Shown one piece after another: positions 6,160 through 38,903 of a DNA stretch of 45,153 nucleotides. A program made the position numbers and the translations under genes. Source of the DNA: Clostridium sp. (GTDB taxonomy: Bacteria; Bacillota; Clostridia; Clostridiales; Clostridiaceae). Positions within the stretch are counted from its first letter, which is position 1; each line of letters starts with the position of its first letter. Where the stretch lies: the NCBI RefSeq assembly GCF_016650035.1, contig NZ_JAENWM010000022.1, positions 1-45,153 of the forward strand, in the 5' to 3' direction. The notes beneath the pieces were generated by a model, which had not been told where the DNA came from, made no database searches, and was given only the letters and a program-made list of their open reading frames with translations.

Positions 6160-6183
6160 GTGCCACCCACGTGGCAAGTGGCA
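6160..6183 (+). repeat. 24-bp intergenic element, copy 1
   Basis: The element starts GTGCCACCCACGTGGC and ends AAGTGGCA, identical over all 24 bases to the copies at 10195 and 23909. It lies between the terminator of the 6262-7947 gene and the start of the NlpC/P60 gene, about 90 bases upstream of that start. TGCCAC-CCAC-GTGGCA can form a hairpin. Confidence 0.85.
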
Positions 6184-6190
6184 TGTTTTA

Positions 6191-6236
6191 TAAAAAAAAT
6201 AGACTTCAAAGGGAGTTTGAATCTCCCTGTGAAGTC
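6191..6236 (-). terminator. Rho-independent terminator of the 561-residue membrane protein gene
   Basis: The stem pairs GACTTCA with TGAAGTC and AGGGAG with CTCCCT (6202-6236). In the minus direction it is followed by an eight-base T run (A-run 6192-6199). Confidence 0.85.
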
Positions 6237-6261
6237 CTTAGTATTAAGAATCTAGCTATTT

Positions 6262-7947
6262 TTATTTTAAATTACTGTTTTTAAAACCAATAGTGGGAAC
6301 TACACTATTATCTTTAATATCAAGATATTTTATCTCCACCTCATCATTTTCCTTAGTTAAGACAATATCAATTCCTGCCGCTTTAGTAACCATGAATAAA
6401 TTACTATTTCCTACTAGCTTAACATAGAAAATAGTATTTCCACTCTCAGTTACAGCGTTTATTCTTAATACCTTACCACTTATAATCTTTTCTTCAGCTT
6501 TTACACTGTTAGCATTCTTATCTGAAGCATCACTTATTTTCCCATAGGATATAGCATTTTTAAAGCTTTCTATTGCTGCTTCTTTAGACTCTTCAAGCAC
6601 AACATAACTATTTTTAGCAGCTACAATTCCTATTTTCACTAAAGCTCCATCCTTTTTGTTAACTACAGGAACAACCCAAGCCTCAGAACCAAATATATTA
6701 TAAAACAGCGGTTGAACTGGTGCCCAGTTAGCTTTATCTGCACCAAGAGCTTTATCTACAGCATTCATAGCTCCTTTTCCATTTATGTAACCCGGTGTTT
6801 TATAATAAATCATTTCACCACTTCTCATATCCATCATAGAGTAACCTGTCATTGTAATAGAATCATCTGAAGTATTAGTATGGTCTGTGAACCACTTCAT
6901 CTTACCATCCGTGTCAATTACTCCTGTAACTTCTCTAGAATTAACATTAAGTCCTTGAACCTGCGTTTCTCCTTCCCAAGTTGTAGATACATGAACTCCC
7001 TTTTTGGCTATGATCTTGTTTAAAAGTCCATTTTGAAGCGTACCAAAATATTTATTATATAATTCAGCTATATCTGAAGGGTGAATTTCATCAACCCACT
7101 CTGGAACCTTATTCACTTTATAATCCATAACCACAGCATCTTTAAAAGAATAAAGTAATACCCCCTCAATCACTGGGAACTTTCTTCCGAATTTATAATG
7201 TCCATAGCTTCCTACATAATAAGGGTTATTTTCTTCATCAAGTTCTACGTTAGCTTGAAAAAGAATTGATGATGGCTTTTGTTGCCTTAAGAACCTTTCT
7301 AAATCTTTTCCTAGCAAAAGTGATTCTGCTATTTTTGATGGTACGCTAATTACTTTTGCCTCCTCAGGTTTTTCTGCCGAAACATATATTGCACCGGGAA
7401 TTTCGCTATTTGTAAGTGCTCTAAATAAACCATCTACCTCTATAGGTGCAACATATGAGGCGCCATCCCCTGTCATAGTAATTCCTAGCTGTCCTATACT
7501 ATAAATACTTGGATTTGGAAGAGTTCCAATCATCTTTTGCATTTCATAATAAGCAGTTTCAGGTGATATAACTATTATATGACTTGCATCAGCTTTTAAA
7601 ATTCCATCACTACTTTCCTTTACAGGTACTGAAGTTGCAAGTTTTTTCGCTCCTGCCGTAATAAATGGATATAAGCTATACCCAATACTCAAAAGGAACA
7701 GTATACTCATTCCAACCGCAAATCTCCCTTTGTTTTCATCCTTTGACCATAACGATAAACACATCTGAAAAATAGCTGGTACCCATAGAGCCGCCATAAT
7801 AAAGTAAATACTTCTATCAACGCATAGTACGTAAAATAAAAACCAACTAAAAATAAGACCTATTATACCTCTCGCAATCTGTTCATTTATATGCTCCTTT
7901 TTAATGCTTGGCTTTAAAAAGAGCAGTATCATTATAATGTAATACAT
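6262..7947 (-). CDS. membrane-anchored protein with large extracytoplasmic domain, family not recognised
   Basis: The protein has 561 residues. The first 110 hold about four hydrophobic segments (starting MYYIIMILLFLK, then ARGIIGLIFSWFLFYVLCV, IYFIMAALWVPAIFQMCLSL and MSILFLLSIGYSLYP). The rest, about 115-561, is soluble and presumably outside the membrane. Recurrent short segments such as APIEVDGLFRAL, SEIPGAIYVSAEKPEEAKVI and DMRSGEMIYYKT suggest beta-rich repeats. The last 75 residues (from IISGKVLRINAV) read like a small OB-like beta barrel. No catalytic motif stands out. The start follows a GGGGGG ribosome binding site. It is a single gene between the NlpC/P60 gene and a sensor kinase; the 43-base gap to the kinase (also minus strand, upstream) would allow cotranscription with it. 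Confidence 0.7.
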   Translation of the reverse strand: MYYIIMILLFLKPSIKKEHINEQIARGIIGLIFSWFLFYVLCVDRSIYFIMAALWVPAIFQMCLSLWSKDENKGRFAVGMSILFLLSIGYSLYPFITAGAKKLATSVPVKESSDGILKADASHIIVISPETAYYEMQKMIGTLPNPSIYSIGQLGITMTGDGASYVAPIEVDGLFRALTNSEIPGAIYVSAEKPEEAKVISVPSKIAESLLLGKDLERFLRQQKPSSILFQANVELDEENNPYYVGSYGHYKFGRKFPVIEGVLLYSFKDAVVMDYKVNKVPEWVDEIHPSDIAELYNKYFGTLQNGLLNKIIAKKGVHVSTTWEGETQVQGLNVNSREVTGVIDTDGKMKWFTDHTNTSDDSITMTGYSMMDMRSGEMIYYKTPGYINGKGAMNAVDKALGADKANWAPVQPLFYNIFGSEAWVVPVVNKKDGALVKIGIVAAKNSYVVLEESKEAAIESFKNAISYGKISDASDKNANSVKAEEKIISGKVLRINAVTESGNTIFYVKLVGNSNLFMVTKAAGIDIVLTKENDEVEIKYLDIKDNSVVPTIGFKNSNLK

Positions 7948-7990
7948 AAGAATCCCCCCAATTTATGTTTTAATTATATAGCAACCACAT

Positions 7991-10096
7991 CTAAAAATAT
8001 ATATCCGAAAACTCAATATTAATTTTTTCAATATTGCTGTTAGCATTGAATTTAGAATTAAAATATTTATCTTTGCTCGCTTGTAGCTGTTTTATAGGAA
8101 GTTCAAAGCTAAATTTACTCCCTTTATTAACCTCGCTTTCTAAAAATATTTTACCTCCGTGCATTTCTACTAACTCTTTAACTAAGGATAATCCTATACC
8201 ACTACCTTCTCTATTCCTCGTAAGGGACTTGTCAACTTGAATAAATCTATCAAAAATACATGATTGCTTTTCTTTTGGTATTCCAATACCTGTGTCCCTA
8301 ACACATACAACAATATTATCACTTCTCTCAAATATATTTACTAAAATATCCCCACCTAGATTTGTGAATTTTATTGCATTCGAAATAAGATTTAACATTA
8401 TTCTTTCTATTTTGTCTTTATCACAAGCTATTATTTTTTCTTCGATTTCTGTATCAAATATAAGCGATATACCTTTATTCTCAACATATTCTGCTACAGA
8501 TAAAGTTATTTCCTCTATAACACTAACAATATTACAATTATTTAAATGAATTTCAAAATATCCTGCATCTATTTTCGTTACATCTATTAAGTTGTCAATA
8601 AGTCTTACTAGTCTATAACAGTTCTGTTTCATAGTTTTTAAATATTTCTTACTTTTTTCATCTTTTTCCTTGAATAGCTCATCAAATTTTAGGTTCATAA
8701 GTTGGAGTGCTCCTAAAATAACATTGATGGGCGTCCTTAATTCATGAGATATATTCGCAAAAAAATCCGTCCTAAGTTTATCGTATTCTATGGCTTGGTT
8801 TAGTAATCTTGTCTTTTCCTTATTTTCTTTCATAACTTTCTCAGCTTCAATGCGTTCAGTAATATCTCGTGCTGATAATAATAATTCTTTAACTTTATTA
8901 TTATCATCTAACAATTTATTACCACAAAACTCTAACCATACAATACTTCCATTTGAATGCAAACATCTACATTGGAATTTTTGAGTTGTAGTTGAAGCAA
9001 TTATTTTTTTTAATTCCCTTAATACAATCTCCTTATCATCTTGGTAAATATAATCAAAAATCAGCTTTCCATTGCCAACCCCTGCGTCATAACCAAGTAT
9101 CTCCTTTTGAGCAGCTGTATTATATTTAATTCTGCCACTAGTATCTGTTTTTATGATCATATCAGAAGAGTTTTCGGTTATCTCTCTTAATAGTGCTTCA
9201 TTCTCCCGTATAGATCTCTCCATTTTTTTTCTTTTATTTATGTTACGAGTTACTACTAAAACTGCTGATTTACCTTTAAACTGAAAAGGAGAGGTCCCAA
9301 CTTCTACCTCTGTAATTATACCTTCATTCGAAAGAAATTTTTCTTCCATAAACGTTGTAACTATTCCCCCTTCACATATTTTGTTTATTCTACTCTTCGC
9401 AATATTAATATACTCAGGATGAACAAAATCCATAACATTTCTTCCAATTATGCCCTTGGGATTTTTAATATCAAACATTCTTTCAGCCATAGGATTAGCT
9501 AATACTATTTTGCCATCACTATGCACAAATATAGCATCTGGGGATAACTCAAAAAACCTCTTATATCCTTCCTCACTTTCTCTTAATTCACATTTCATTT
9601 TCTGAATTTTAATATCCTCTATACATACTCTTTCCATAACAGCAGCAGCCTGAATACAAATTAGCTTAAGCATTTTCAGCTCCATATGACTATAGTGAGA
9701 TTTTTTATCTATGTATAAAATTCCTATTAACTCTTCATTGAAAATTAACGGATGAAAAATTTCAAATCCTTCGCTATCATTATTAATTATTTTTTCTTCC
9801 CTGCACACACAGATTTGTTCTATACTGACTCTAAATGTATTAGAGGTCTCTCTAATATTATCTTTATTATAAAAAATCACTTCACTACATTTCTCTTTCC
9901 ATTCTGCTACCACTTCAAAGTTTTTAAATACAGCTTCTATAATTAGTATTTTTTTTGCTTTTAAATAACTATCTACTATTTTAATTAGCTCCCTATACAA
10001 AGCATTTCTATCATTTTTAAATAATAAACTCTTTGATAACTCAATAATTTTATCAATATCTATTTCTTGTACTACCTTAATATCATGTTCACTCAT
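7991..10096 (-). CDS. orphan GAF-PAS-PAS sensor histidine kinase
   Basis: This 701-residue kinase has no transmembrane segment, so it is probably cytosolic. A GAF-like domain spans about 15-160, PAS domains about 170-290 (FFELSPDAIFVHSDGKIV) and 300-420 (ITENSSDMIIKTDTSGRI), and HisKA carries the phospho-acceptor in SHELRTP (His451). HATPase_c follows, with the N box NLISNAIKFTN, DTGIGIPKE and GSGIGLSLVKELVE. After the kinase core there is a tail of about 40 residues ending IEFSDIYF, shared with the kinase at 28765-32169. No response regulator is adjacent. In clostridia such orphan kinases often act on Spo0A or other distant partners; here that is only a possibility. The start ATG follows AAGGGGGATT. 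The protein is complete. Confidence 0.9.
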   Translation of the reverse strand: MSEHDIKVVQEIDIDKIIELSKSLLFKNDRNALYRELIKIVDSYLKAKKILIIEAVFKNFEVVAEWKEKCSEVIFYNKDNIRETSNTFRVSIEQICVCREEKIINNDSEGFEIFHPLIFNEELIGILYIDKKSHYSHMELKMLKLICIQAAAVMERVCIEDIKIQKMKCELRESEEGYKRFFELSPDAIFVHSDGKIVLANPMAERMFDIKNPKGIIGRNVMDFVHPEYINIAKSRINKICEGGIVTTFMEEKFLSNEGIITEVEVGTSPFQFKGKSAVLVVTRNINKRKKMERSIRENEALLREITENSSDMIIKTDTSGRIKYNTAAQKEILGYDAGVGNGKLIFDYIYQDDKEIVLRELKKIIASTTTQKFQCRCLHSNGSIVWLEFCGNKLLDDNNKVKELLLSARDITERIEAEKVMKENKEKTRLLNQAIEYDKLRTDFFANISHELRTPINVILGALQLMNLKFDELFKEKDEKSKKYLKTMKQNCYRLVRLIDNLIDVTKIDAGYFEIHLNNCNIVSVIEEITLSVAEYVENKGISLIFDTEIEEKIIACDKDKIERIMLNLISNAIKFTNLGGDILVNIFERSDNIVVCVRDTGIGIPKEKQSCIFDRFIQVDKSLTRNREGSGIGLSLVKELVEMHGGKIFLESEVNKGSKFSFELPIKQLQASKDKYFNSKFNANSNIEKINIEFSDIYF

Positions 10097-10194
10097 CTTA
10101 ATCCCCCTTCGTAAATCAATTGAAACGTTGTTGATCTTTAAAACTTTTACAAATACTATATTCTACAAAATATGGCATATACCTCTTTTTTGTG

Positions 10195-10218
10195 GTGCCA
10201 CCCACGTGGCAAGTGGCA
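10195..10218 (+). repeat. 24-bp intergenic element, copy 2
   Basis: All 24 bases match copy 1. With the copy at 23909 it also shares the flanks: GTG before and TCTT after. It lies in the divergent region between the kinase (start at 10096, 99 bases away) and the AlaX-like gene. The rest of 10097-10409 holds no ORF or other clear structure. Confidence 0.85.
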
Positions 10219-10409
10219 TCTTGCAAATATTTACTTACACCTTCTGATTCGAATTATTTCACCTACCTGATTTTTCTTATTTTAAAAGCAATGTTCCACA
10301 ATTGTTAAACCTGTATACTTATAATGATTTTTATATTTATCAGTAATTTTTTTATGGTACAATATATAAAACAGTGAAATATATTATAGTATATAGGAGA
10401 TGCTTGAAT

Positions 10410-11630
10410 TTGGAAAAATTATGTTATGAAAATCCCTATCAAAAGGAATTTACAGCTGAAGTCATAAATGTAATTCAAAAGGAAAAGGAGTATCATGTTG
10501 AACTGGATAAAACTTATTTTTACCCAGAAGGTGGTGGCCAGCCAAGTGATACCGGATATATAAATGGTATCGCAGTCACCTATGTATATGAAAAAAACGA
10601 AAAAATATATCATGTTGTAGGAGTAAATCCTTTGAAAATTCATAAAGTTAAATGTAGCATAGACTTTGAAAAAAGGTATGATTATATGAAGCAACACCTG
10701 GGTCAGCATATACTTTCTGCTTGTATTTCTAATTTATTCAATGCAGTTACCATTGGTTTTCACCTTGGCAAGGATTCCGCAACAATTGATATTGATAAAA
10801 CTATTGGAAGTAGCCAACTTAAAGAATGCGAAGAAATGGCCAATAAAATAATTTTAGAGAATATTAATATAGAAGTACTTTATCCAACCAGTTCTGAGCT
10901 TAAAAAATTATCATTAAAAAAAATTCCAGTTAAAGCATTCGAGAAAATTAGAATAGTTAAAATATCTGATATAGATGTGAATCCTTGCTGTGGTCTACAT
11001 CCGAGTTCTACTATTGAGGTGCAATTAATTAAGGTTACTAAATTTGAAAAATATAAGAATGGCTTAAGAATTGAGTTTATGTGTGGGGGAAGGGCAATTT
11101 CTGATTATGCATCAAAACATGAAGCTATAGAGAAAATGTCTAAACTTTTATCTTGTAATAATGCTACTGTTTTATCCGAAGTGCAAAGACTTTCAGGTGA
11201 GCTAAATAAGGCACTAACTGAAAAAAGAGCATTAAAGGCTGAAGTTGCTGAGTATGAAGTTCAAAATATGTTAGCATCGGCCCCTAAAATAGGAGATATT
11301 AAGGTTCTTAAGGGAATTTATGATAATGTTGATTTAAAATACACTAATATGCTGGCAACAAAATTAGTTACCACTCCAAATGTTATAGCTTTATTTGGTG
11401 TAAAATCCGCGGACAAAGCAAATATATTATTCATGTGCTCAAAAGATTTAAATATTATCAGTATGAATGACCTTCTAAAGGATGCCATAACCCTTATAGA
11501 TGGTAAAGGTGGTGGAAGTGCATTCTCCGCGCAAGGCGGTGGAAAGAATAATAACAATTTAGATTCCGCGCTAGATTATGCTCATAACAAGATTAAAGAA
11601 CACATAATTTCTAGTTCAAGAATTAAATAG
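10410..11630 (+). CDS. alanyl-tRNA editing protein, AlaX-L type with DHHA1 domain
   Basis: The free-standing editing enzyme hydrolyses mischarged Ser- or Gly-tRNA(Ala). From the chosen start it is 406 residues. It has an N-terminal barrel with YFYPEGGGQPSDTG, the zinc site HLGQH (His96, His100) and CCGLH (Cys193, His197), a coiled linker around 250-285, and a C-terminal DHHA1 domain with GKGGGSAFSAQGGG. The frame is open back to a GTG at 10374, but TATAGGAGATG lies at about 10394-10404, and the TTG at 10410 (giving LEKLCYENPY, typical of the family start) fits its spacing. A second TTG at 10404 is close to the site. It is a single gene with a strong hairpin terminator. Confidence 0.88.
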   Translation: MEKLCYENPYQKEFTAEVINVIQKEKEYHVELDKTYFYPEGGGQPSDTGYINGIAVTYVYEKNEKIYHVVGVNPLKIHKVKCSIDFEKRYDYMKQHLGQHILSACISNLFNAVTIGFHLGKDSATIDIDKTIGSSQLKECEEMANKIILENINIEVLYPTSSELKKLSLKKIPVKAFEKIRIVKISDIDVNPCCGLHPSSTIEVQLIKVTKFEKYKNGLRIEFMCGGRAISDYASKHEAIEKMSKLLSCNNATVLSEVQRLSGELNKALTEKRALKAEVAEYEVQNMLASAPKIGDIKVLKGIYDNVDLKYTNMLATKLVTTPNVIALFGVKSADKANILFMCSKDLNIISMNDLLKDAITLIDGKGGGSAFSAQGGGKNNNNLDSALDYAHNKIKEHIISSSRIK

Positions 11631-11644
11631 GTTATAAGTCACTT

Positions 11645-11686
11645 TAAAGGGGCTATCTCAAAAATCCATTTGAGACAGCCCCTTTA
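11645..11686. terminator. terminator hairpin, convergent genes
   Basis: A GC-rich hairpin (AAAGGGGCT and AGCCCCTTT plus TCTCA/TGAGA inside) lies between the AlaX-like gene and the convergent phosphofructokinase gene. It probably serves both, though T runs are short. Confidence 0.7.
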
Positions 11687-11687
11687 C

Positions 11688-12905
11688 CTATTTATTTAGA
11701 ATTTTTGGTACTTTAGATGCCCTAAGTCTGTGTGCATAATGCATGTCGGATCCTAAAAGTGGCCTAGCGTAATTTAAGAATGCATCAGTTACATTATTGC
11801 ATGCACTATTAATAAAATAATCAGGCATAACCTTTGTCTTGCCTGCTACCATGTCTAATTGAGTAAGTCTATAATCTACTGAATAGTGACCTGTTCTATG
11901 AATAGTAATTGAACCATCAACATTATCCCAAAGTGCAAACTGTGCAGCTTTTTCCCCTACTTCTCTAGCTTCATTTCTATCTACATCTGATACACACCCC
12001 ATAAAACATCTTTGAGAATATCCGAATGTATCCGTTCTAACCCTTCTAATATTTAGATTTTTTCTAATATAGTTACCTAAAAGGTCACCTAGTGCTCCTG
12101 ATCCAGATAATTGTATATTTCCATGTTCATCTTTTTCTACTCTTTCCATAAGACTTGAAATAATTGGTTGACCTTTTTCATCTACAATACCTTCAGATAC
12201 AGCTATTACACATCTTCCATATTTATCATAAACATTTTTAACATCAACCAAAAATTGTTCTATTTTAAAAACTCTTTCAGGCACATATATTAAATGTGGA
12301 CCATCATCTTCGTATTTTTTAGCTAAGGCTGCGGCTGCTGCTAAAAACCCTGCATTCCGTCCCATTACTACCCCTATATATACCCCTGGTAATGCTCTAT
12401 TATCAAGATTGATTCCAATAAATGCATTTGTTATATATTTGGCTGCAGATCCATATCCAGGAGTATGGTCATTAATCATAAGATCATTGTCTATAGTTTT
12501 AGGTATATGAATTGCTCTAAGTTCGTAACTTGCAATTTTAGCTTGCTGATGTACTATTCTAACTGCATCTGATGAATCATTTCCTCCAATATAAAAGAAA
12601 TATCTTATTTCATGAGCTTTAAGCACCCTAAATATTTCCTTACAATATTCTACATCTGGCTTGTCTCTTGTAGATAAAAGTGCTGAGGATGGAGTCATAG
12701 CCACTTGTTCTAAATTATGAGTTGTCTCACGGCTTAAATCATGAAAATTTTCATTAACTATACCATTTACTCCATTTATAGCACCATAAACTTTTGTTAC
12801 CTGTGGAAATTTTCTTGCTTCGAGCACCGCACCAACTAGAGATTGATTAATAACAGCGGTTGGTCCCCCACCTTGCGCAATTAAAACTTTACCTTCAATT
12901 ATCAT
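11688..12905 (-). CDS. pfp: 6-phosphofructokinase family, probably pyrophosphate-dependent
   Basis: The 405-residue enzyme phosphorylates fructose 6-phosphate in glycolysis. The substrate motif PKTIDND (residues 135-141) has Lys after Pro, the residue that marks PPi-dependent enzymes, where ATP-dependent ones carry Gly. The loop IAQGGGPTAVIN is near the N terminus. Other family segments are GYGSAAKY, VMGRNAGFLAAAAALA and GYSQRCFMGCVSDVDR. The phosphoryl-donor loop reads GGNDS (107-111), whereas ATP enzymes have GGDGS and classical PPi enzymes GGDDS, so the first Asp is replaced by Asn. That is unusual but the second Asp is kept. The start follows AAGGGGTG. It is a single gene downstream of the thi operon terminator. 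Confidence 0.85.
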   Translation of the reverse strand: MIIEGKVLIAQGGGPTAVINQSLVGAVLEARKFPQVTKVYGAINGVNGIVNENFHDLSRETTHNLEQVAMTPSSALLSTRDKPDVEYCKEIFRVLKAHEIRYFFYIGGNDSSDAVRIVHQQAKIASYELRAIHIPKTIDNDLMINDHTPGYGSAAKYITNAFIGINLDNRALPGVYIGVVMGRNAGFLAAAAALAKKYEDDGPHLIYVPERVFKIEQFLVDVKNVYDKYGRCVIAVSEGIVDEKGQPIISSLMERVEKDEHGNIQLSGSGALGDLLGNYIRKNLNIRRVRTDTFGYSQRCFMGCVSDVDRNEAREVGEKAAQFALWDNVDGSITIHRTGHYSVDYRLTQLDMVAGKTKVMPDYFINSACNNVTDAFLNYARPLLGSDMHYAHRLRASKVPKILNK

Positions 12906-12966
12906 ATTTCTACACCCCTTATAATTTTAGGATTACTTTACACAATATTATTATATAAACCTAATA

Positions 12967-13002
12967 AAAAAAGCTCAATGTGATTGTTAATCATAGCGAG
13001 CC
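12967..13002 (-). terminator. terminator of the thiamine operon
   Basis: In the minus direction GCTC...TGATT-aac-AATCA...GAGC is followed by seven T (A-run 12967-12973 on the plus strand). It lies about 120 bases after the thiE stop. Confidence 0.7.
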
Positions 13003-17224: not shown

Positions 17225-17270
17225 ATATTACCATGTTATATAAAAATTCATATAGCTATAATACATCAGT

Positions 17271-17367
17271 AAACAACTTCCTACGCTGGCATTATCCAGT
17301 TCAGGTTATTAGGGTCAAAGAATTACAGTTCTTGCTCTCAGTTGGCTTATCCAACTCCCCTGTGTTT
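17271..17367 (-). promoter_or_regulatory. TPP riboswitch (THI element) aptamer
   Basis: In the minus direction the conserved parts occur in order: CAGGGGAGTTGG, CTGAGAG, ACCCTAATAACCTGAACTGG, ATAATGCCAGCGTAGGAAG. These are the pyrimidine-sensing and pyrophosphate-sensing arms. P1 is closed by AAACA (17363-17367) with TGTTT (complement of 17271-17275). High thiamine diphosphate should favour the downstream terminator and stop expression of thiW-thiD-cytX-thiM-thiE. Confidence 0.95.
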
Positions 17368-17428
17368 GACTATTCACTTTTAATTTCATAATTCTATAAT
17401 ACCATAATGGATAATTATATACAAATTA

Positions 17429-22462: not shown

Positions 22463-23158
22463 ATGGATAATATATTAGAAACAGAAAGCTTATCCAAGTC
22501 ATATTACAGAAATAAAGCATTAAAAGAAGTAACTTTAAATGTTAGGCCTGGTAGTATTCTTGGTCTTTTGGGACCTAATGGAAGTGGAAAAACCACATTT
22601 TTAAAAATAATTGCAGGTATTCTCAATCCATCTTCTGGTAAAATCCTAATAGATGGTCACATTCCTGGGGTTTATACCAAAGGTATTGTTTCTTATTTAC
22701 CTGACAATGAATATCTTCTTAAATGGATGAAAGTAAAAGATACAATTAAATACTTCAAAGATTTCTACAATGATTTTGATGAAAAAAAGGCTTATGAATT
22801 ACTGGAATTTATGAAGCTTGATGCAAGCAGTAGTGTTAAAAGTCTTTCAAAGGGAATGAAAGAAAAACTAAAACTTACATTGGTACTTTCACGAAAAGCA
22901 AAACTATATGTACTAGATGAACCTCTTGGCGGTGTAGATCCCGTAGCTCGCGAAAAGATATTAGATTCAATAATTAGTAGCTTTAATGGGAAAAGCTCAA
23001 TGATTATTACTACTCATTTAGTGAATGATATCGAAAGAATTTTTGACGAAGTTGCTTTCATTTCTGATGGTGAAATAGTCCTTACAGGGAATGCAGAAGA
23101 ACTGAGAACAAGTAGAAATAAATCTATTGATGAATTGTATAGGGAGGTATTTAAATAA
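22463..23158 (+). CDS. ABC transporter ATPase (YtrB-like)
   Basis: The 231-residue nucleotide-binding subunit carries Walker A GPNGSGKT (about 38-45), the Q-loop region replaced by VSYLPDNEYLL (Asp where Gln is usual), the signature SLSKGMKEKLKLTLVLS, Walker B LYVLDEPLGGVD and the switch His in ITTHLV. The SLSKGM variant with Lys/Met is common in YtrB-like exporters. The start follows AGGGAGG. The last base overlaps the permease start. Confidence 0.9.
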   Translation: MDNILETESLSKSYYRNKALKEVTLNVRPGSILGLLGPNGSGKTTFLKIIAGILNPSSGKILIDGHIPGVYTKGIVSYLPDNEYLLKWMKVKDTIKYFKDFYNDFDEKKAYELLEFMKLDASSSVKSLSKGMKEKLKLTLVLSRKAKLYVLDEPLGGVDPVAREKILDSIISSFNGKSSMIITTHLVNDIERIFDEVAFISDGEIVLTGNAEELRTSRNKSIDELYREVFK

Positions 23159-23901
23159 TGTTTAAGCTTGTAAAATATGAATTAAGAGGAAACTTATTTA
23201 CTATACTTGGTATTTGCATAACTCTGATAATCGCTAATTTACTACTATTAACAAGAATAGACTCCTGGGGCATAGATGTTGTAGGAGGATTTTCCATTCT
23301 TTTAGGTATTGGTGCTATAATCGTAATTTTTATATTTTCACTAAATATTATGAGTAAATATTTACATCAGGACTCTGGTTATCTTCTGTTTACATTACCA
23401 CGGTCTGGCACTTCCATAATAATGTCTAGACTGATAACTTCATTAATACAAATTACTTTGGTGATTTTAGTATCTTTTCTTTGTGCTTATTTACTTATAG
23501 GAGAAGATATACCCCTGGAATTTTCTAAATACTTCAAAATTTATGGAATGGTATTAATTGAATATATTTACAGAGTTATCTCTTTTCTAACTTTTATATA
23601 CTTTTGCATGATTATAGGTAAAGTAGCCTTTAGAAATAAAAAAATAGGTAAGATAGGTTCATTTGTAGTCTTTATACTACTCATCTTATTCATAGGTTGG
23701 ATTCAGACAAAAATACTAATATTATTCCCACAAACTATAAATATTACCAAGCTTATAGGTTCTACAACTATAGGCGCAAATCAAACAGATATTCTTTCAT
23801 ATGTAGAAATCAACATTGCAATGAAAATTTCAAGTATATCCACTACCATTATCCTTTTTATGTCCGGATCCTATTTATTAGATAAAAAAGTTGATCTTTA
23901 A
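23158..23901 (+). CDS. ABC transporter permease
   Basis: The membrane subunit has 247 residues and about six hydrophobic segments. It starts MFKLVKYELRGNLFTILGI, an ABC-2 type beginning. The positions near 75 (HQDSGYLLFTLPRSGTSIIMSRL) resemble the cytoplasmic loop LxxTLPVS..I..SK of BcrB/YtrC-like permeases. The start overlaps the ATPase stop by one base (TAATG), so translation is coupled. The substrate is unknown, possibly an antimicrobial peptide or lipid. It ends the operon. Confidence 0.85.
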   Translation: MFKLVKYELRGNLFTILGICITLIIANLLLLTRIDSWGIDVVGGFSILLGIGAIIVIFIFSLNIMSKYLHQDSGYLLFTLPRSGTSIIMSRLITSLIQITLVILVSFLCAYLLIGEDIPLEFSKYFKIYGMVLIEYIYRVISFLTFIYFCMIIGKVAFRNKKIGKIGSFVVFILLILFIGWIQTKILILFPQTINITKLIGSTTIGANQTDILSYVEINIAMKISSISTTIILFMSGSYLLDKKVDL

Positions 23902-23908: not shown

Positions 23909-23932
23909 GTGCCACCCACGTGGCAAGTGGCA
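23909..23932 (+). repeat. 24-bp intergenic element, copy 3
   Basis: It matches copies 1 and 2 in all 24 bases, and shares GTG before and TCTT after with copy 2. It begins 7 bases after the permease stop, directly before the convergent terminator hairpin. This is the only copy between two 3' ends. Confidence 0.85.
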
Positions 23933-23937
23933 TCTTA

Positions 23938-23982
23938 TAATCATAAAGGTTCGGCAATCTACTTGCCGAACCTTTATGATTA
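23938..23982. terminator. convergent terminator hairpin with 20-bp arms
   Basis: TAATCATAAAGGTTCGGCAA, a 5-base loop, then its exact complement. It lies between the permease operon and the LiaF-like gene. T runs are weak, but the stem is very stable. Confidence 0.8.
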
Positions 23983-23983
23983 C

Positions 23984-24682
23984 TTAATAATTCCTATCTT
24001 TGTTTTTTATATCTACTCCACCAAAAGCTACAAAGCAATTTAAAGTTAAAACTGGTGCATCTGGATTATCATAGTTTCTGCCTCTAGTTTTATTTGACCA
24101 TCCTCCAAAAATAGGAACGCCCTTCACTACAATCTTCCAGTCTGGAGGAACTATTATATTCACTCCGCCAAAAGTAGATGTTACATCTATTCTTGCACCA
24201 TTATTTAAAAGAAAAGCATCTCTAAGATCCAGATCAATACCACCAAATATAGCAACAAGACTACCACCTCTAAAATTCTTAGATACATTTCTAGTTTTTA
24301 CGCCTGAAAAAAGTGCTAAATTATCCACCATGTCCTCGTCAATTTCTACTTTACTAAATTCATAGTTTTTTTTAGCTGAATTTCTTGGAACTAACATCGA
24401 TACCCCAATAGCTATTATTATGCCAGGCCAAAAAAATCTTGTTAGACTAACAGTAATAATATCAAGCTTTCGCATTTGAAATAGTACACCAAGTACTATT
24501 AATACGATTCCTGAAGTTTTAGAAACTGGTTTTCCACTTAACTGACTTACTCCAGCGCCTATTAGTATAAGTGGCCACCATATTGATATTATGTTCCCCA
24601 AACTCCAAAATCCTAATTGTTGAAATATTGCACTAACACCAATTAATATAAATATGATTCCTAAAAAAACTTTACCTTTCAA
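23984..24682 (-). CDS. LiaF-like membrane protein (DUF5668 / cell-wall stress response domain)
   Basis: About 232 residues from the TTG at 24682. The frame is open to a GTG at 24706, but that codon is inside repeat copy 4, while AAAGGGGCG stands well placed before the TTG (LKGKVFLGIIFILIGV). Four hydrophobic helices (1-105) form a DUF5668-like part with WPLILIGAG and FFWPGIIIAIG. The C-terminal 120 residues are a beta-rich LiaF/DUF2154-like domain with repeated FSGVKT, IFGGIDLDLRDA and TFGGVNIIVPPDW. LiaF tunes the LiaRS envelope-stress system in Bacillus. Here no liaRS is adjacent, but an antibiotic-type ABC operon is convergent. Confidence 0.85.
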   Translation of the reverse strand: MKGKVFLGIIFILIGVSAIFQQLGFWSLGNIISIWWPLILIGAGVSQLSGKPVSKTSGIVLIVLGVLFQMRKLDIITVSLTRFFWPGIIIAIGVSMLVPRNSAKKNYEFSKVEIDEDMVDNLALFSGVKTRNVSKNFRGGSLVAIFGGIDLDLRDAFLLNNGARIDVTSTFGGVNIIVPPDWKIVVKGVPIFGGWSNKTRGRNYDNPDAPVLTLNCFVAFGGVDIKNKDRNY

Positions 24683-24699
24683 AATAATCGCCCCTTTAT

Positions 24700-24723
24700 G
24701 TGCCACCCACGTGGCAAATGGCT
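24700..24723 (+). repeat. 24-bp intergenic element, copy 4 (two changes)
   Basis: It starts GTGCCACCCACGTGGC and ends AAATGGCT: two differences from copies 1-3. It lies 17 bases upstream of the LiaF-like start, next to the ribosome binding site, so a hairpin in the mRNA leader could affect translation. Confidence 0.8.
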
Positions 24724-28750: not shown

Positions 28751-28764
28751 GAATTATCATTAAT

Positions 28765-32489: not shown

Positions 32490-33731
32490 ATGGACCCCGA
32501 TGCGTGGCAAATTATATCTTTAGTTATTTTATTAATGCTTTCTGCCTTTTTCTCTGCCTCTGAAACTGCTTTAATGAGTTTAAGCAAAATCAGGTTACGA
32601 CATATGGTAGATTCTGAAACTAAAGGTGCTGAACGAATTAATAAATTAATTAAAAATCCAAGTAAACTTTTAGGTTCTATTTTGGTAGGAAATAATATTT
32701 CAAATATTGGTGCTTCTGCACTAGCAACTTCACTAGCAATTAACCTTTATGGAGACTCTGGAGTAGGTATTGCAACAATTGCAATGACAGTTCTTGTGTT
32801 GATCTTTGCAGAAATAACACCGAAGTCACTAGCTGCACAAAATTCCGAAAAAATATCTCTAAAAATTGCTGGCCCAATAAGTGTAATTACATTTGTTTTA
32901 AATCCACTTATCACAGTGTTAATTTATATAACAAATACAATTATTAAGATACTTGGTGGCGAAATTGATAAGGTAAAACCTTTTATTACTGAAGAAGAAT
33001 TAAAAACAATGGTTAGTGTAAGTCATGAGGAAGGTGTTTTAGAAGGCGAAGAAAAACAAATGATTTATAATGTATTTGAGTTTGGAGATTCGCAAGCAAA
33101 GGATGTTATGACTCCACGAACTGATATGATTGTAGCAAATATAACCTCAACTTATCAAGAACTCATAAATATTTTTAGGGAAGAGCAATTTTCTAGATTA
33201 CCTATATATGAAGAGACCGTTGATAATATTATTGGAGTTTTATATATTAAAGATTTAATTTTCTTTGAAGATGGAAAAGAAGAGTTCAGCATAGAAAAGC
33301 ATATGCGTGTTCCGTACTTTACCTATGAGTTTAAAAGCACTGTTGATTTATTTGCAGATATGCGAGCAAAGCGAGTGCCTATAGCTATTTTATTAGATGA
33401 ATATGGCGGTACTTCTGGTATTGTTACTATCGAGGATTTAGTGGAAGAAATTGTTGGAGATTTAGAAGATGAATATGATGATGATGAAGATAAAATTGAA
33501 GTCATTAAAGAGGATGAATACATTGTTGATGGTGATACTAAAATAAGCATGGTTAATGAAATGATAGGCCTCAACATAGAATCAGAGGACTTTGACTCCA
33601 TAGGTGGTTTTGTTACAGGATTACTTGGGAGACTTCCAAAGACTGGTGAAACCATAAATTATAATGATACGAAATTCACTATACAAAGCACCAGTAGAAA
33701 TCGTATTGTAAAAATGAAAATTATAACATAA
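32490..33731 (+). CDS. CorC/HlyC (CNNM-like) family protein: DUF21 - CBS pair - CorC_HlyC
   Basis: 413 residues. The DUF21/CNNM membrane domain (about 5-190) carries LMLSAFFSASETALMSLSKIRLRHM, ILVGNNISNIGASALATSLA and FAEITPKSLAAQNSE. The CBS pair (about 200-330) has MTPRTDMIV and RVPIAILLDEYGGTSGIVTIEDLVEEIVGDLEDE. A CorC_HlyC domain closes the protein (about 345-413). Relatives export Mg2+ or other cations in a sodium-dependent manner, and the older name hemolysin is misleading. The ATG lies 12 bases after AAGGAG, a rather long spacing. It is a single gene with a terminator. Confidence 0.9.
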   Translation: MDPDAWQIISLVILLMLSAFFSASETALMSLSKIRLRHMVDSETKGAERINKLIKNPSKLLGSILVGNNISNIGASALATSLAINLYGDSGVGIATIAMTVLVLIFAEITPKSLAAQNSEKISLKIAGPISVITFVLNPLITVLIYITNTIIKILGGEIDKVKPFITEEELKTMVSVSHEEGVLEGEEKQMIYNVFEFGDSQAKDVMTPRTDMIVANITSTYQELINIFREEQFSRLPIYEETVDNIIGVLYIKDLIFFEDGKEEFSIEKHMRVPYFTYEFKSTVDLFADMRAKRVPIAILLDEYGGTSGIVTIEDLVEEIVGDLEDEYDDDEDKIEVIKEDEYIVDGDTKISMVNEMIGLNIESEDFDSIGGFVTGLLGRLPKTGETINYNDTKFTIQSTSRNRIVKMKIIT

Positions 33732-33736
33732 AAATA

Positions 33737-33780
33737 AAAAAGTACTTAAGGTGGTTATTTAAACCATCTTTAAGTACTTT
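33737..33780. terminator. convergent terminator
   Basis: AAAGTACTTAAG...GGTT-ATTTA-AACC...CTTTAAGTACTTT, an imperfect long stem with A/T runs on both sides. Confidence 0.8.
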
Positions 33781-33796
33781 AATATTTGTAAATCAA

Positions 33797-34903
33797 CTAC
33801 AAAATTTTCCTAGGAATCTGACATTTTATTTTCTTCTCTATAGAATCCAAAATAAACTTATCCTTAGGGGCTGCAAATAAATATGTGTATCCCTCTTCGC
33901 CCGCTCTTCCAGTTCTTCCTATACGGTGTATATAGCCTTCAGCGCTTTCAGGTATATCATAGTTATAAACATGACTCACGCCGTTTATATCAAGTCCTCT
34001 AGCCGCTACATCCGTGGCAATTAAATACTGAATGTCACAGTTTTTAAATTCTTTCATTATTTTTTCTCGTTTCGATTGTGTTATATCAGAATGTAACTTT
34101 TTACAGTTATATCCTTTTTTATAAAGAGCCATCTCAAGATCATCGACTCTTCTTTTAGTTCTACAAAAAATTATTGCCATAAAGGGGTTTCCTTCATCTA
34201 AAACCTTGCATAAATCTTCTTGTTTTCTTCTATCAGTGGTTTCTATCAAAAATTGTTTTATATTTTTAAGGGTTGTTTGTTCTTTCTTTATAATTATCTC
34301 TTTAGGGTCGTTCATAAACTTGTAAGCAAGTTTTTTAACATCTGAGCTCATAGTTGCTGAAAAACATAATGTTTGCCTACTTTTTGGTGTTTTCGATATG
34401 ATAGCTTCAATATCGTTCTTAAATCCCATAAGAAGCATTTGATCTGCCTCATCTAATACTAAGGTCTTCAAATTATCCAGTACAACCGTTCCACGACTAA
34501 GATGGTCAAGAAGTCTACCTGGCGTTGCAATAACCAGATGAATATTTCCCTTTAGTTTTTTAAGCTGCACACCTATATCTTTTCCACCATAGGCAGCCAA
34601 AATATTTATTTTTTTATCCCCTACAAGCTTCTTAGCTTCTGTTGTTATTTGTATTGCAAGTTCTCTTGTAGGTGTAACTATTAATCCTTGAATTGTATTT
34701 ATATCAGGGGACATATTATTAAACATTGGCAGTAGAAATGCCAGTGTCTTACCTGTGCCTGTTTGTGCCTCTGCTATAACATCTTTTCCTGCTTTTATTA
34801 ATTCGATACTTTGCTCTTGAATCGGAGTTGGCTCATTTATTCCTTGAATTTTAAGTATATCCAGAATATCGTCGTTGATTCCTAATTTTTTAAACTTTAT
34901 CAT
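33797..34903 (-). CDS. DEAD-box ATP-dependent RNA helicase
   Basis: About 368 residues. Motifs in order: Q motif (LGINDDILDILKIQGINEPTPIQ), I AQTGTGKT, Ia PTRELA, Ib TPGR, II DEAD, III SAT, IV IIFCRTKRRVDDL, V ATDVAARGLDI, VI HRIGRTGRAG. It ends about 20 residues after motif VI, so it has only the helicase core without a C-terminal RNA-binding extension, as in short CshB/RhlE-like forms. Of two in-frame ATGs, the second (34903) has AAAGG at good spacing. Unwinding of rRNA or mRNA is likely. A palindromic element (copy 5) lies 53 bases upstream. Confidence 0.92.
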   Translation of the reverse strand: MIKFKKLGINDDILDILKIQGINEPTPIQEQSIELIKAGKDVIAEAQTGTGKTLAFLLPMFNNMSPDINTIQGLIVTPTRELAIQITTEAKKLVGDKKINILAAYGGKDIGVQLKKLKGNIHLVIATPGRLLDHLSRGTVVLDNLKTLVLDEADQMLLMGFKNDIEAIISKTPKSRQTLCFSATMSSDVKKLAYKFMNDPKEIIIKKEQTTLKNIKQFLIETTDRRKQEDLCKVLDEGNPFMAIIFCRTKRRVDDLEMALYKKGYNCKKLHSDITQSKREKIMKEFKNCDIQYLIATDVAARGLDINGVSHVYNYDIPESAEGYIHRIGRTGRAGEEGYTYLFAAPKDKFILDSIEKKIKCQIPRKIL

Positions 34904-34953
34904 TATCATTTACCTTTCTATCTAAAACATATTTTCGTCAGTCTATTATACCA

Positions 34954-34981
34954 TTAGTGCCACCCACGTGGGTGGCACTAA
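34954..34981 (+). repeat. intergenic element, copy 5: 28-bp perfect palindrome
   Basis: The left half is TTAGTGCCACCCAC and the right half is its exact complement. The first 15 bases of the shared core (GTGCCACCCACGTGG, from 34957) are identical to copies 1-4, but the CAA that breaks symmetry in those copies is missing. It lies upstream of the DEAD-box gene and touches the terminator hairpin of the lipoprotein gene. Confidence 0.8.
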
Positions 34982-35018
34982 AAAACAGCCAATCCACAAG
35001 GGTTGGCTGTTTTTTTTA
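34981..35018 (-). terminator. terminator of the lipoprotein gene
   Basis: AAAAACAGCCAA pairs with TTGGCTGTTTTT, loop about 10 bases, T-rich in both directions. Confidence 0.8.
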
Positions 35019-35050
35019 GGTTGTCTACTTTTGCAAGCACACAGTATAAT

Positions 35051-35629
35051 TTATTTCTTTAATTCTTTAACTCCAGTTACTTCACTTGTTTCATCCATTG
35101 TAAATGTAGATTGGGCTTCTTCAGTAGTGAAATATACATTTCCGTCTACTTTAGCATCTTTTAACTTAAAGTCATTTGCTGAAACATAAAGGTCACCTAT
35201 GAAAATTCCATGTTCTATACTTCCCATAACACTTTTAAAAGTTAATTTTGGTGCAGTCAAAGTGAATCTATTAGTTACGTTACGATCTTCATCTTGTGTG
35301 TATAGACCTATCTTACGTTGCATAAGTTCTATAGTTTCATCTTTTTCATCTGTTTTACCATTTTTAAAATCTCCATCAACTACAAGCTCTTTGTCAAAAG
35401 TTAAATCCTTTAGTGTTGCAATGATCCAAGTACCTTCAGCGCTTATAGCACTTTCAAAAGCTGCTTCAGTATCTACAATTGATGCTGTTGTTACTACGTC
35501 AGCCACTGCTGCTGTTGTTTCTTCAGTTATTGTTGTTTCTTCAGTTTTTGCTGGTTCATTATTAGCACCACATCCTACTAATAATGTAGCACCTAGAGCT
35601 AATGTTAATAATATTGCTTTGATTTTCAT
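35051..35629 (-). CDS. lipoprotein, bactofilin-like beta repeats, unknown function
   Basis: A 192-residue lipoprotein with lipobox LLVGC (Cys20), a Thr/Glu-rich linker (25-48), then a domain with EGTWIIATLKDLTFDKELVVDGDF, KIGLYTQDEDRNVTNRFTLTAPKL, HGIFIGDLYVSANDFKL and AKVDGNVYF. The short strands with GD/GN turns resemble the beta-helix ladders of bactofilin or polymer-forming proteins. Similar lipoproteins occur in clostridia, but I know of no role. The start follows ACGGGGGTATT. It is a single gene. Confidence 0.7.
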   Translation of the reverse strand: MKIKAILLTLALGATLLVGCGANNEPAKTEETTITEETTAAVADVVTTASIVDTEAAFESAISAEGTWIIATLKDLTFDKELVVDGDFKNGKTDEKDETIELMQRKIGLYTQDEDRNVTNRFTLTAPKLTFKSVMGSIEHGIFIGDLYVSANDFKLKDAKVDGNVYFTTEEAQSTFTMDETSEVTGVKELKK

Positions 35630-35814
35630 TTGAATACCCCCGTCGTTATTATTTTTTTATTAATGTTTTATATCTTGAACAAGCTCATCATATCATATGT
35701 GATAAAAAAATAACAAGATGAAATCGATATAATTTCGCTTACAAAATGAACAAAATTAAAATCTAGTGCACCAACACGGAAAATGTCAAAAAAATGGTAA
35801 GTTAATATATTTTA

Positions 35815-35843
35815 TTGCTTTTTTTCTGAAAAATCTGTATAAT
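35815..35843 (+). promoter_or_regulatory. sigma-A promoter of nhaC
   Basis: TTGCTT (35815-35820), a 17-base spacer, TATAAT (35838-35843). It implies a leader of about 95 bases before the nhaC start. The remainder of the gap 35630-35946 shows no ORF or other clear structure. Confidence 0.7.
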
Positions 35844-35946
35844 ATCACTTACACATTATATGAATTTTAAATTAATTATAAATTTATAATATTCATGTAA
35901 ACCTTTAAGTTTTTCGAAATACTATAACATAGAGGAGGAATTATAA

Positions 35947-37386
35947 ATGGCTTCAAAAGTAAAAAAGCCTAGAGAAGCAAAATTATGGGAGGCTTTAATA
36001 CCGATAGTTGGTACTATAGCACTTCTAATGTATTCTGTGTTACCTTATTTCAAGGTTGAGCAGTCAGTCCATGTTTCATTAATTTTTGGAACAGTTATAG
36101 CTACTATAGTTGCTATAACTAGACTTGGATACTCTTGGAAAGATATTGAAGATGGAATTATAGGTAGTATTTCTGGAACTATGCAAGCAATACTTATTCT
36201 AGCAATTATAGGTATGATTATAGGTACATGGATTCTTGGTGGAATTGTGCCTACACTTATTTATTATGGATTACAAATACTAAGCCCATCAATATTCTTA
36301 GTTGCAACATGTTTGCTTTGTGCTGTTGTTTCAATATCTACAGGCAGTTCATGGACTACAGCAGGCACTGTAGGTATAGCACTAATGGGTGTTGCTGCAG
36401 GTCTTCAAATACCAGCACCAATGGCAGCAGGTGCAATAATTTCCGGAGCATATTTTGGTGATAAAATGTCTCCACTATCAGATACTACAAATCTAGCGCC
36501 TGCTATGGCTGGCGCAAATTTATTTGACCATATTAAACATATGGTATATACAACAGGAGTCAGTTTGACAATTGCTTTAATTGGCTATGCAATACTTGGG
36601 TTTAGATTTGCCGGAAAAACACTTGATTCATCTAAAATAGATGCAATCACAGATCTAATGAGCCAAACCTTTACAATAAACCCAGTTTTACTATTGGTAC
36701 CTATTATTGTTATAGTTTTAGTTGCTAAAAAAGTACCTGCTATTCCAGGTTTATTTATAGGTGTAATACTTGGTGGCATTGCTGCTATCGCTACTCAAGG
36801 TGCTAGCTTCGCTGATGTAACACTGGCAATGCAGGACGGTATTGTATCCAAAACTGGAAATGTGCTTTTAGATGATCTTCTTACTAGAGGTGGATATCAA
36901 AGCATGATGTGGACAATATCTTTAATAATAGCAGCACTTTCTTTTGGGGGTGTACTTGAGAAAACTGGAATGCTTGAGACTCTTGCAAAGAGAGTACTTA
37001 GATATGCAAAGAGTACAGGTTCACTCGTAACAGCTACAGTTTTTACAGCAATATTTGCAAATATACTAGCTGGTGATCAATATCTTTCAATCGTGCTTCC
37101 CGGAAAAATGTACAAGGAAGAGTTCCACAAAAGAGGTCTCGCTCCTAGGAATCTTTCAAGATGTCTTGAAGATGCTGGTACAATAACTTCTCCACTTGTT
37201 CCATGGAACACATGTGGAGCATTTATGTCCACCTCCCTTGGAATTGCAACGATTTCATATCTTCCTTACTGCTTCTTAAATCTTGTTAATCCCTTTGTAT
37301 CCATCTTCTTTGGATATACAGGAATTACAATGATGAAACTTGAAGATGATCCATCAGCTCCAGAATATACTGGTTCAAAAAAATAG
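35947..37386 (+). CDS. nhaC: NhaC family Na+/H+ antiporter
   Basis: 479 residues, about 11-12 hydrophobic helices. NhaC-type signatures are STGSSWTTAGTVGIALMGVA, ISGAYFGDKMSPLSDTTNLAPAMAG (charged residues inside the membrane) and LEDAGTITSPLVPWNTCGAFMSTSLGI. It exchanges external protons for internal sodium, or in some members couples malate/lactate or amino acid exchange. The start follows GAGGAGGAATTATAA. It is a single gene. Confidence 0.9.
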   Translation: MASKVKKPREAKLWEALIPIVGTIALLMYSVLPYFKVEQSVHVSLIFGTVIATIVAITRLGYSWKDIEDGIIGSISGTMQAILILAIIGMIIGTWILGGIVPTLIYYGLQILSPSIFLVATCLLCAVVSISTGSSWTTAGTVGIALMGVAAGLQIPAPMAAGAIISGAYFGDKMSPLSDTTNLAPAMAGANLFDHIKHMVYTTGVSLTIALIGYAILGFRFAGKTLDSSKIDAITDLMSQTFTINPVLLLVPIIVIVLVAKKVPAIPGLFIGVILGGIAAIATQGASFADVTLAMQDGIVSKTGNVLLDDLLTRGGYQSMMWTISLIIAALSFGGVLEKTGMLETLAKRVLRYAKSTGSLVTATVFTAIFANILAGDQYLSIVLPGKMYKEEFHKRGLAPRNLSRCLEDAGTITSPLVPWNTCGAFMSTSLGIATISYLPYCFLNLVNPFVSIFFGYTGITMMKLEDDPSAPEYTGSKK

Positions 37387-37390
37387 TTAT

Positions 37391-37427
37391 AAAAAATCCT
37401 TGTTGAAATTCCAACAAGGATTTTTTT
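37391..37427. terminator. terminator shared by nhaC and the convergent PH-like gene
   Basis: AAAAAATCCTTGTTG-gaattt-like loop-CAACAAGGATTTTTTT; T runs on both strands. Confidence 0.9.
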
Positions 37428-37950
37428 ATATAATTTTTTTATGCCTTTCATTTACCTTAGCAAGTATTTTATCCCTTAATGCATCTCCATTCTCAACAAA
37501 AGAAATTAGAACCTTAGACGCCATATTGAAATTTATGTTTAAATCTGTATCTCCCTCATCGTCAGAGATAATTCTAACAATTTCGTTAAAGGATTTTCTA
37601 GATTTTATACCACTTACCCCCTCCACCTTGATACCTTTCTTTCTTGTAAATGCATATAGTAATGTAGTGTCATCGTCAATTCCATGGACTGCGCAAAAAG
37701 CAATATTATCAAATTTTATAGTTTTGATTCCAAAGGGTTTGTATATTTTGATTTTTTGATTATCCACTGTTATGGAGAGTATTAGCCCCTTATAAGTATT
37801 AAAAGCAGATAAAATAAAAATCACCATCATTATTATTTCGAGTGCAACATTATCAATATACAGATAACTCACAATGGCTAATAATACAGATATTGTAAAG
37901 ATACTACCAAGTTTTATTATAGAATCGCGTTTCCCGGTAAATTTGTCCAT
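37426..37950 (-). CDS. small membrane protein with PH-like domain, unknown
   Basis: 174 residues from the ATG at 37950 (MDKFTGKRDS), preceded by AAAGGAGG; the upstream in-frame ATG is within the leader. Two hydrophobic helices (about 13-55: IIKLGSIFTISVLLAIVSYLY and ALEIIMMVIFILSAF) are followed by a soluble beta-rich part with SITVDNQKIKIYKPFGIKTIKFDNIAFC and a C-terminal amphipathic helix. The layout, two helices then a PH-like barrel, resembles bPH-type membrane proteins. The family was not recognised with certainty. Confidence 0.6.
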   Translation of the reverse strand: MDKFTGKRDSIIKLGSIFTISVLLAIVSYLYIDNVALEIIMMVIFILSAFNTYKGLILSITVDNQKIKIYKPFGIKTIKFDNIAFCAVHGIDDDTTLLYAFTRKKGIKVEGVSGIKSRKSFNEIVRIISDDEGDTDLNINFNMASKVLISFVENGDALRDKILAKVNERHKKII

Positions 37951-38018
37951 GTATCCTCCTTTGTTTAACATTATTTTGTCCTCTAGATCTAGTAATTTTA
38001 TAATATTTTCTATAAATA

Positions 38019-38834
38019 TTACCCCAAAGCTACATCTAATATCATCATAATTGCAAAACCTAGCATAGCACCAATTGTTGAAATATCTGTTTTTGAATCC
38101 TGTTGTGATTCCGGTATTAATTCTTCAACAACTACAAAAATCATAGCTCCTGCTGCAAAAGATAATGCATAGGGAAGAATAGGTTTCATAGCTATTACTG
38201 CAAATGCTCCTATGACTCCAGCTATAGGTTCTACTATGCCTGATGCCTGACCATATATAAAACTTTTAGAGCGAGAGAACCCCTCTCGCCTGAGTGGTAT
38301 AGAAACGGCAGCTCCTTCTGGAAAGTTTTGAATACCAATTCCAATTGCCAGTGCAACAGCTCCCGCAAGTGATGCTGAAGGTAGTCCCGCCGCTACTGCT
38401 CCAAAAGCAACTCCAACTGCAAGTCCTTCTGGTATGTTGTGTAGTGTTATAGCGGATACTAGTAATACACTTCTTTGCCAACTAGTTTTAATTCCTTCCG
38501 CTTGCTCTATTGGTTGATTAAGATGTAAATGCGGTAAAATTTTATCTACTGCTAAAAGAAAAGTTCCGCCTGCTAAAAATCCTACTGCTGCAGGTATCCA
38601 CGCCGGCGTACTTGTTTGCTCTGCCATTTCTATAGCAGGTGCCAGTAGAGACCAAAAACTAGCGGCAATCATAACTCCTGCTGCAAACCCAAGCATCCCA
38701 TTTAAAACCTTTCTATTTATCTCTTTAAAGAAAAATACTAATGATGCTCCGAGTGCTGTTACACCCCAAGTAAATAGTGTTGCAATAAGGGCTTGAATTA
38801 TAGTATCAAACCCACTAAGCCAATTTATTATCAT
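38019..38834 (-). CDS. ZIP family metal transporter
   Basis: 271 residues, about eight hydrophobic helices. Metal-site motifs are [15 protein letters not shown] in helix 4 and [13 protein letters not shown] in helix 5 (His, Asn, Pro, Glu), with PHLHLNQ in the variable loop between helices 3 and 4. This is the GufA/ZupT-like branch, which takes up zinc, iron or other divalent cations. The start follows TGGAGGG. Copy 6 of the intergenic element lies 45 bases upstream. Confidence 0.92.
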
Positions 38835-38879
38835 AAAAACCCTCCATTCTAAACTCTTATCAATGTTGTCTGTTTACTG

Positions 38880-38903
38880 GTGCCTTGCGCTGCACAAGTG
38901 GCA
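38880..38903 (+). repeat. 24-bp intergenic element, copy 6 (divergent middle)
   Basis: It starts GTGCC and ends AAGTGGCA like copies 1-3 and has the same 24-base length, but the middle is TTGCGCTGCAC. On the minus strand CTTG pairs with CAAG around a TGCAGCG loop, so a hairpin remains possible with different bases. Confidence 0.5.

Follow-up and report, generated by a model that had tools for sequence, protein, structure and literature searches.

A dispersed 24-bp repeat of Clostridium is very probably one arm of a REPIN-like inverted pair and the partner of a Y1/HUH transposase

Two described kinds of system join dispersed extragenic repeats to a transposase of their own. In REPIN-RAYT systems (RAYT, REP-associated tyrosine transposase; REP, repetitive extragenic palindrome), the accessible text describes extragenic inverted pairs that form hairpins and a dedicated transposase gene flanked by the repeat, with singlets read as remnants of pairs (PMC3116915). 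For the TIRtron/TIRYT systems, the available sections of the paper report a RAYT-like gene lying between inverted repeats that are unlike the GTAG REPs, and these repeats are dispersed, moderately abundant, partly present as dimers and partly self-complementary (PMC3733652). We found comparable features for a 24-bp element, GTGCCACCCACGTGGCAAGTGGCA, first noted in a 45,153-nt stretch of Clostridium sp. DNA (assembly GCF_016650035.1, contig NZ_JAENWM010000022.1, positions 1 to 45,153; hereafter the window). The 24-mer is very probably one arm of a REPIN-like repeat, and the partner of a Y1/HUH transposase with a helix-turn-helix (HTH) domain, that is, a RAYT of the TIRYT kind.

On contig C119 of the window's genome (G000), inverted exact copies of the element enclose an open reading frame (ORF) of 289 aa. 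The encoded protein has a Y1_Tnp domain (PF01797, E 1.5e-12), the catalytic domain family of IS200/IS605, and a C-terminal HTH_38 domain (27.6 bits against a cut-off of 27). It is the sole one of nine Y1_Tnp matches in this genome with the element nearby; for a given gene, flanking of this kind would arise by chance with a probability of about 1e-7. Close relatives (E<=1e-40) amount to 12 proteins in 11 of 206 Clostridiaceae genomes. This differs from IS200/IS605, where the transposase gene is self-moving and multi-copy: here 10 of the 11 genomes have a single close match and G138 has two, and the genomes of the window's genus that keep the RAYT share one locus for it. Four genomes (G000, G004, G090 and G092) have the element as well as a close RAYT, and without exception inverted copies flank the gene; upstream the nearest copy is 82-168 bp away, downstream 2-13 bp. 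All 12 RAYTs share an invariant HYH motif and an invariant tyrosine (Tyr119) within Y[IV]HRNP, and judging from the motif Tyr119 would be the catalytic residue. The dN/dS values were 0.12, 0.09 and 0.16 in three comparisons, the fourth being saturated. A PDB sequence search with the RAYT (E up to 0.1) returned no match. The window's genome also has three more RAYT-like genes of 304-313 aa (L155, L156 and L157, on contigs C143, C155 and C52), which adjoin a different inverted repeat, GGGGACGGTTAACAA, near but not equal to the published GGGGWSAS motif.

The remaining eight RAYTs, which are more distant and come from seven genomes, are likewise flanked by inverted repeats, each by its own kind (8/8). 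GTGCCA is present in six of these eight repeats, mostly as GGTGCCAGGCACC with differing tails; the exceptions are L233, which has GTGCCT, and L234, which is unlike. When 100-200 kb around the RAYT gene were sampled in six of the seven genomes, each sample held 4-17 copies of its own repeat type (<=3 mismatches, including the two at the gene), and cross-matches between types were confined to G086, G088 and G117. The repeats of the second G138 RAYT and of G122 gave no match, though the sampled stretches included neither of these two genes. For the window's element there was no match in the six samples, and there were 26 in G090 and 21 in G092. The palindrome is placed differently in the GTGCCAGGCAC types, which retain the GTGCCA start, so what is shared is sequence rather than one RNA fold. 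In a midpoint-rooted tree of 28 distinct RAYT proteins (the motif filter having dropped several 305-aa RAYTs), the 12 relatives form one clade with a support of 0.906, but only nine of them were typed automatically as having GTGCCA at either side of the gene; the tree itself lends weak support. These observations establish that the repeat type goes with the RAYT in several genera.

The copies also have a defined geometry. Among distinct pairs of copies <=100 bp apart, 27 were tail-to-tail, 2 tandem and none head-to-head, which is the over-representation of extragenic inverted doublets seen with REPINs (pair geometry, position counts and the compensatory test below each pool all loci gathered at that stage of the analysis). 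The commonest gap is 13, 14 or 9 bp, and a complete unit, two inverted copies arranged tail-to-tail, measures about 57-61 bp. As single-stranded DNA such a unit forms an almost perfect hairpin, and two of them gave -34.8 and -36.3 kcal/mol (z -11.1 and -11.6). At one site a 61-bp pair in C. pascui corresponds to GTGCCAC/GTGGGTGGCAC in isolate BSD9I1, and at a second site the same comparison gave a pair against a singlet. The window itself has a 22-bp perfect palindrome at 34957..34978 (with no strand), within the 28-bp palindrome 34954-34981 that had already been recognized as perfect. Because Clostridium sp. CF012 has a whole 57-bp pair at the same site, beside the orthologous DEAD-helicase gene, this palindrome is a collapsed inverted pair of the same kind; in C. 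tagluense the pair at this site is shortened differently. At another site of BSD9I1 (L300, G092:C1 ~265,690-267,440), an inverted pair that C. pascui has in plain form is interrupted by an insert of about 1.7 kb, resembling by eye a transposase gene.

We further estimated the abundance of the element using a 24-mer pattern with four free positions. The source genome (3.97 Mb, 167 contigs) gave 27 perfect matches, every one the identical 24-mer, and 39 copies at <=3 mismatches, while the reversed pattern had zero matches in the same genome, so that the element is indeed repeated genome-wide. The common orientation of the window copies, as given in the original prediction, holds within the window only; it is a small-sample effect, since 22 of the 39 copies are forward and 17 reverse. 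An exact scan of named species genomes found at least 104 stretches carrying the element, and among those listed 93 were titled Clostridium (including C. pascui, C. peptidivorans, C. bowmanii and C. tagluense), 8 came from one uncultured Clostridiaceae metagenome-assembled genome (MAG), 2 from a Bacillota MAG and 1 from a Gloeobacterales MAG. The exact copy filed under this last cyanobacterium (L068, JACMIX010000096.1) is probably clostridial contamination. At <=1 mismatch the element occurs in 16 of the 206 Clostridiaceae genomes, of which 13 belong to the window's genus (g1, 17 genomes) and three to genus g8, and in none of the 44 other genera among them, with a maximum of 82 copies per genome; the g8 genome G091 has three. 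The wider consensus is R-GTGCCACCCACGTGGCAAGTGGCA-AGTT, and position counts over 292 copies showed strong sequence conservation of the palindromic core. A plasmid or viral origin was considered and rejected, as a 32-base query had no plasmid match and viral contigs held no exact match. A subfamily with a longer conserved tail (AAAGTGACAA...TATAGATGTTATCC-like) was seen at L026 and L027 in the window's own genome and at L084, L089, L091, L095, L096 and L129 in Clostridium sp. CS001, which suggests that it is part of a larger composite repeat.

The RAYT of G000 and G004 lies between a SNF2-type helicase gene and a small conserved gene. The small gene is present in all 17 genomes of the window's genus and the helicase adjoins it in 16, the locus of G015 stopping at a contig break. 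The RAYT is intact in only two of the 17. Fourteen readable loci have no intact gene, and at eight of them (G002, G003, G006, G007, G008, G012, G013 and G014) we found a 3' fragment resembling the last 120 bases of the RAYT and scoring above all 500 shuffles; a translated search recovered five of these eight. The G016 locus has a near copy of the element, and in G001, G005, G009, G010 and G011 the spacer is short and holds no fragment or element (the G010 fragment score was equalled by 10 of 500 shuffles). Copy numbers (<=1 mismatch) were 30 and 61 in the intact-gene genomes, 11, 10, 22, 14, 1, 51, 82 and 7 in the fragment genomes, 45 in G015, and 0, 0, 0, 0 and 1 in the short-spacer genomes. 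A RAYT trace was associated with copy number over 16 genomes (Mann-Whitney p 0.003; Fisher p 0.008 for two or more copies), with G015 left out and shared ancestry ignored. In genus g8 the helicase and small-gene neighbours were not found beside the RAYT, so the locus differs there. Since gene fragments remain at this one locus, the presence of repeats without the enzyme appears to be explained for eight genomes.

When judged by features against the published descriptions, the element and its RAYT fit the TIRYT/TIRtron kind: the Y1 domain with HUH and tyrosine motifs, the C-terminal HTH and the flanking by inverted repeats (4/4 plus 8/8) were all found. The GGGGWSAS of some TIRs is absent from the element consensus, although in the available sections of that paper it is not a required feature (PMC3733652). 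The same sections contain neither single-locus RAYT fragments nor cross-genus matching of repeat and enzyme, name neither Firmicutes nor Clostridium, and describe tyrosine transposase genes as lacking any obvious correlation with REP or TIR families (PMC3733652). The RAYT also shares with TnpA-Y1 subclass 2.1, as presented in the accessible part of the survey, a C-terminal HTH, the NH[YF]H motif and a Y[IV]H.NP-like tyrosine motif, but this motif is YIHRNP here and not YIHLNP (PMC6006769). REP-like sequences are reported there, in the part available, to be lacking near subclass 2.1 genes (PMC6006769), whereas in the present case the gene is flanked by a hairpin repeat that forms a dispersed family. 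In a literature search with partial coverage of journals (REP-associated transposases, REP, Y1_Tnp in Clostridium, TIRYT, REPIN in Firmicutes) we found no account of this repeat, and two stretches of the element did not occur in the literature texts searched, where matches were only to the short strings GTGCCAGGCAC or GTGCCTGGCAC. The family is thus, as far as the accessible portions of these sources go, a further case of the known REPIN/TIRYT-like kind, in bacteria unmentioned for it.

By analogy with other TnpA-REP enzymes, which according to the available text bind and cut the single-stranded element and carry out transfer in vitro (PMC8266576), the RAYT would recognize the element in single-stranded DNA, maybe at the replication fork, would cut it via its tyrosine, and would move the pair to new sites. 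Pairs would then shrink by internal deletion between short internal repeats, leaving singlets like those of the window; that singlets in general derive from pairs is likewise our inference.

Several observations weigh against this reading. The NCBIfam model for REP-associated tyrosine transposases scored below its cut-off (65 vs 80 bits), and unlike in REPIN-RAYT systems there is no GTAG tag, the position counts of the 292 copies lacking GTAG beside the hairpin at one end. Of the 16 genomes that carry the element, 12 lack a close RAYT; G016 has 9 copies yet no significant RAYT fragment, and G012 and G013, both rich in copies, have 19 Y1_Tnp matches, none of which lay within 3 kb of a listed copy. 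Paired copies had more mismatches to the consensus (1.29 in G090 and 1.25 in G092) than singlets (0.50 and 0.53), which is the opposite of what the accessible text reports for REPINs (PMC3116915); this excess may for the most part reflect a subtype with A at position 12 (G12A). We saw no transposition event, and no clean empty site either between G090 and G092 (400 kb each) or among G003, G006 and G007; in these comparisons sites were shared, collapsed or not bracketed, and at G006 2038 (L348) a diverged 22-base stretch stands opposite in G003. Most sites are common to close species, so movement is slow or past. In the spacer matching the 10195 copy of the window, no copy was seen in G004, G005, G012 and G016, in a one-sided comparison where only the kinase side was alignable and the alignments stopped 4 bases short of the element.

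The original prediction also offered a dispersed regulatory or RNA-processing element in 5' leaders, in which two left arms compete for one right arm as a switch. The 24-mer is indeed capable of two alternative hairpins, and five of the six window copies sit just upstream of minus-strand genes. When we examined the pairing, however, 12 pairs of both hairpins in 311 copies showed no compensatory pattern and just 2 two-sided copy-by-pair cells (27 of 338 copies with 5-6 mismatches were excluded, and 9 copies of one related type, from G086, included). The inner-hairpin pair 7-12 was broken in 87 of the 311, lone 24-mers folded little better than shuffles (z -1.06 on one strand and -1.33 on the other), and Rfam at gathering scores matched neither the window copies nor loci L086, L113 and L150. 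The gene context was evaluated with a simple ORF model, excluding copies <300 bases from a locus end and using only spacers with both neighbours. In the window's genome 26 of 34 copies lay between ORFs, as did 36 of 43 from the G090/G092 stretches and 132 of 163 from the named loci, against a background with 83-85% of positions inside ORFs. Convergent spacers held 5/26, 14/35 and 43/131 of the copies in these three sets, where the background shares are 8%, 13% and 14%; the excess is significant in the last two and not in the window's genome alone (p 0.05). In tandem-gene spacers the orientation of the copies was 9:8, 10:4 and 43:34, which is no bias. The pairing and context results therefore count against a leader switch, and with it against mutually exclusive hairpins and a preference for 5' leaders; we rejected it as a highly improbable explanation. 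The arrangement of two left arms and one right arm better fits half of an inverted pair.

A binding site for a chromosomal protein (a nucleoid protein or transcription factor), flanking the RAYT only incidentally, would agree with the strong conservation of the palindromic core and with the dozen genomes that keep the element but not the close enzyme. It is nevertheless very unlikely, as the repeat type follows the RAYT across genera, eight genomes still have remnants of the RAYT gene at its locus and tail-to-tail pairs keep a fixed spacing; judging from the sequences, a protein-binding site is likely only as the site of the RAYT itself. The least probable alternative is a conventional family of miniature inverted-repeat transposable elements (MITEs), or footprints, moved by an ordinary DDE transposase. 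The element is short, intergenic, palindromic and dispersed, and the BSD9I1 insert resembles, by eye, a transposase gene of another kind. That insert, however, is a single case at a site that has a plain pair in C. pascui, no constant target duplication was apparent by eye in 144 listed copies, and the gene between the elements is a Y1/HUH enzyme in 4/4 genomes. Of the earlier suggestions, a REP/MITE-like family is the correct one, and the RNA-side suggestion is not supported.

The six sites in the window are as they were first described, and Pfam confirms the neighbouring genes (NlpC/P60, PAS histidine kinase, LiaF-like, DEAD helicase and ZIP). A 16-base core at <=3 mismatches gave 6 matches, against a shuffle mean of 0.01, with the palindrome counted once per strand. 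Three identical copies on the plus strand lie at 6160..6183, 90 bp upstream of the NlpC/P60 gene 4933-6069(-), at 10195..10218, upstream of the PAS histidine-kinase gene, and at 23909..23932, between the converging ends of 23158-23901(+) and 23984-24706(-), where the copy adjoins a terminator-like palindrome. This last feature, a long perfect inverted repeat seen by eye at ~23937-23983 (TCATAAAGGTTCGGCAA...TTGCCGAACCTTTATGA), is probably a two-way terminator between the converging genes. A further copy, at 24700..24723 (+), carries two changes; it lies at the 5' border of the LiaF-like gene and extends 7 bases into the longest version of that ORF. The site at 38880..38903 (+), upstream of the ZIP transporter gene, retains both ends and the AAGTGGCAAGTT tail and differs in the middle. 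Among 300 single-base shuffles, none contained the pattern GTGCC-11N-AAGTGGCA and four had the 12-base tail AAGTGGCAAGTT; because of this rarity, for a pattern picked post hoc, we regard the site as probably a degenerate copy. The only Rfam match in the window is a thiamine pyrophosphate (TPP) riboswitch at 17260-17371 (-), with 69.9 bits.

The association of an HTH-bearing RAYT clade (subclass 2.1) with a dispersed hairpin family contrasts with the reported lack of REP-like sequences in that subclass. The series of intact, eroded and absent RAYT genes allows one to ask how long the repeats outlast the transposase, and whether the enzyme moves them. More tentatively, it is possible that every HTH-bearing RAYT of the Clostridiaceae has its own matching hairpin family, that enzyme and family diversified jointly across genera, and that the RAYT of the window's genus was held at one ancestral locus under purifying selection and has since eroded in most species, leaving orphan repeats datable by the fragments. 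Such selection would hint at a role of the RAYT that is useful to the host. If this is true, RAYT-repeat co-evolution and the decay of repeats after loss of the enzyme would become measurable in a Gram-positive group.

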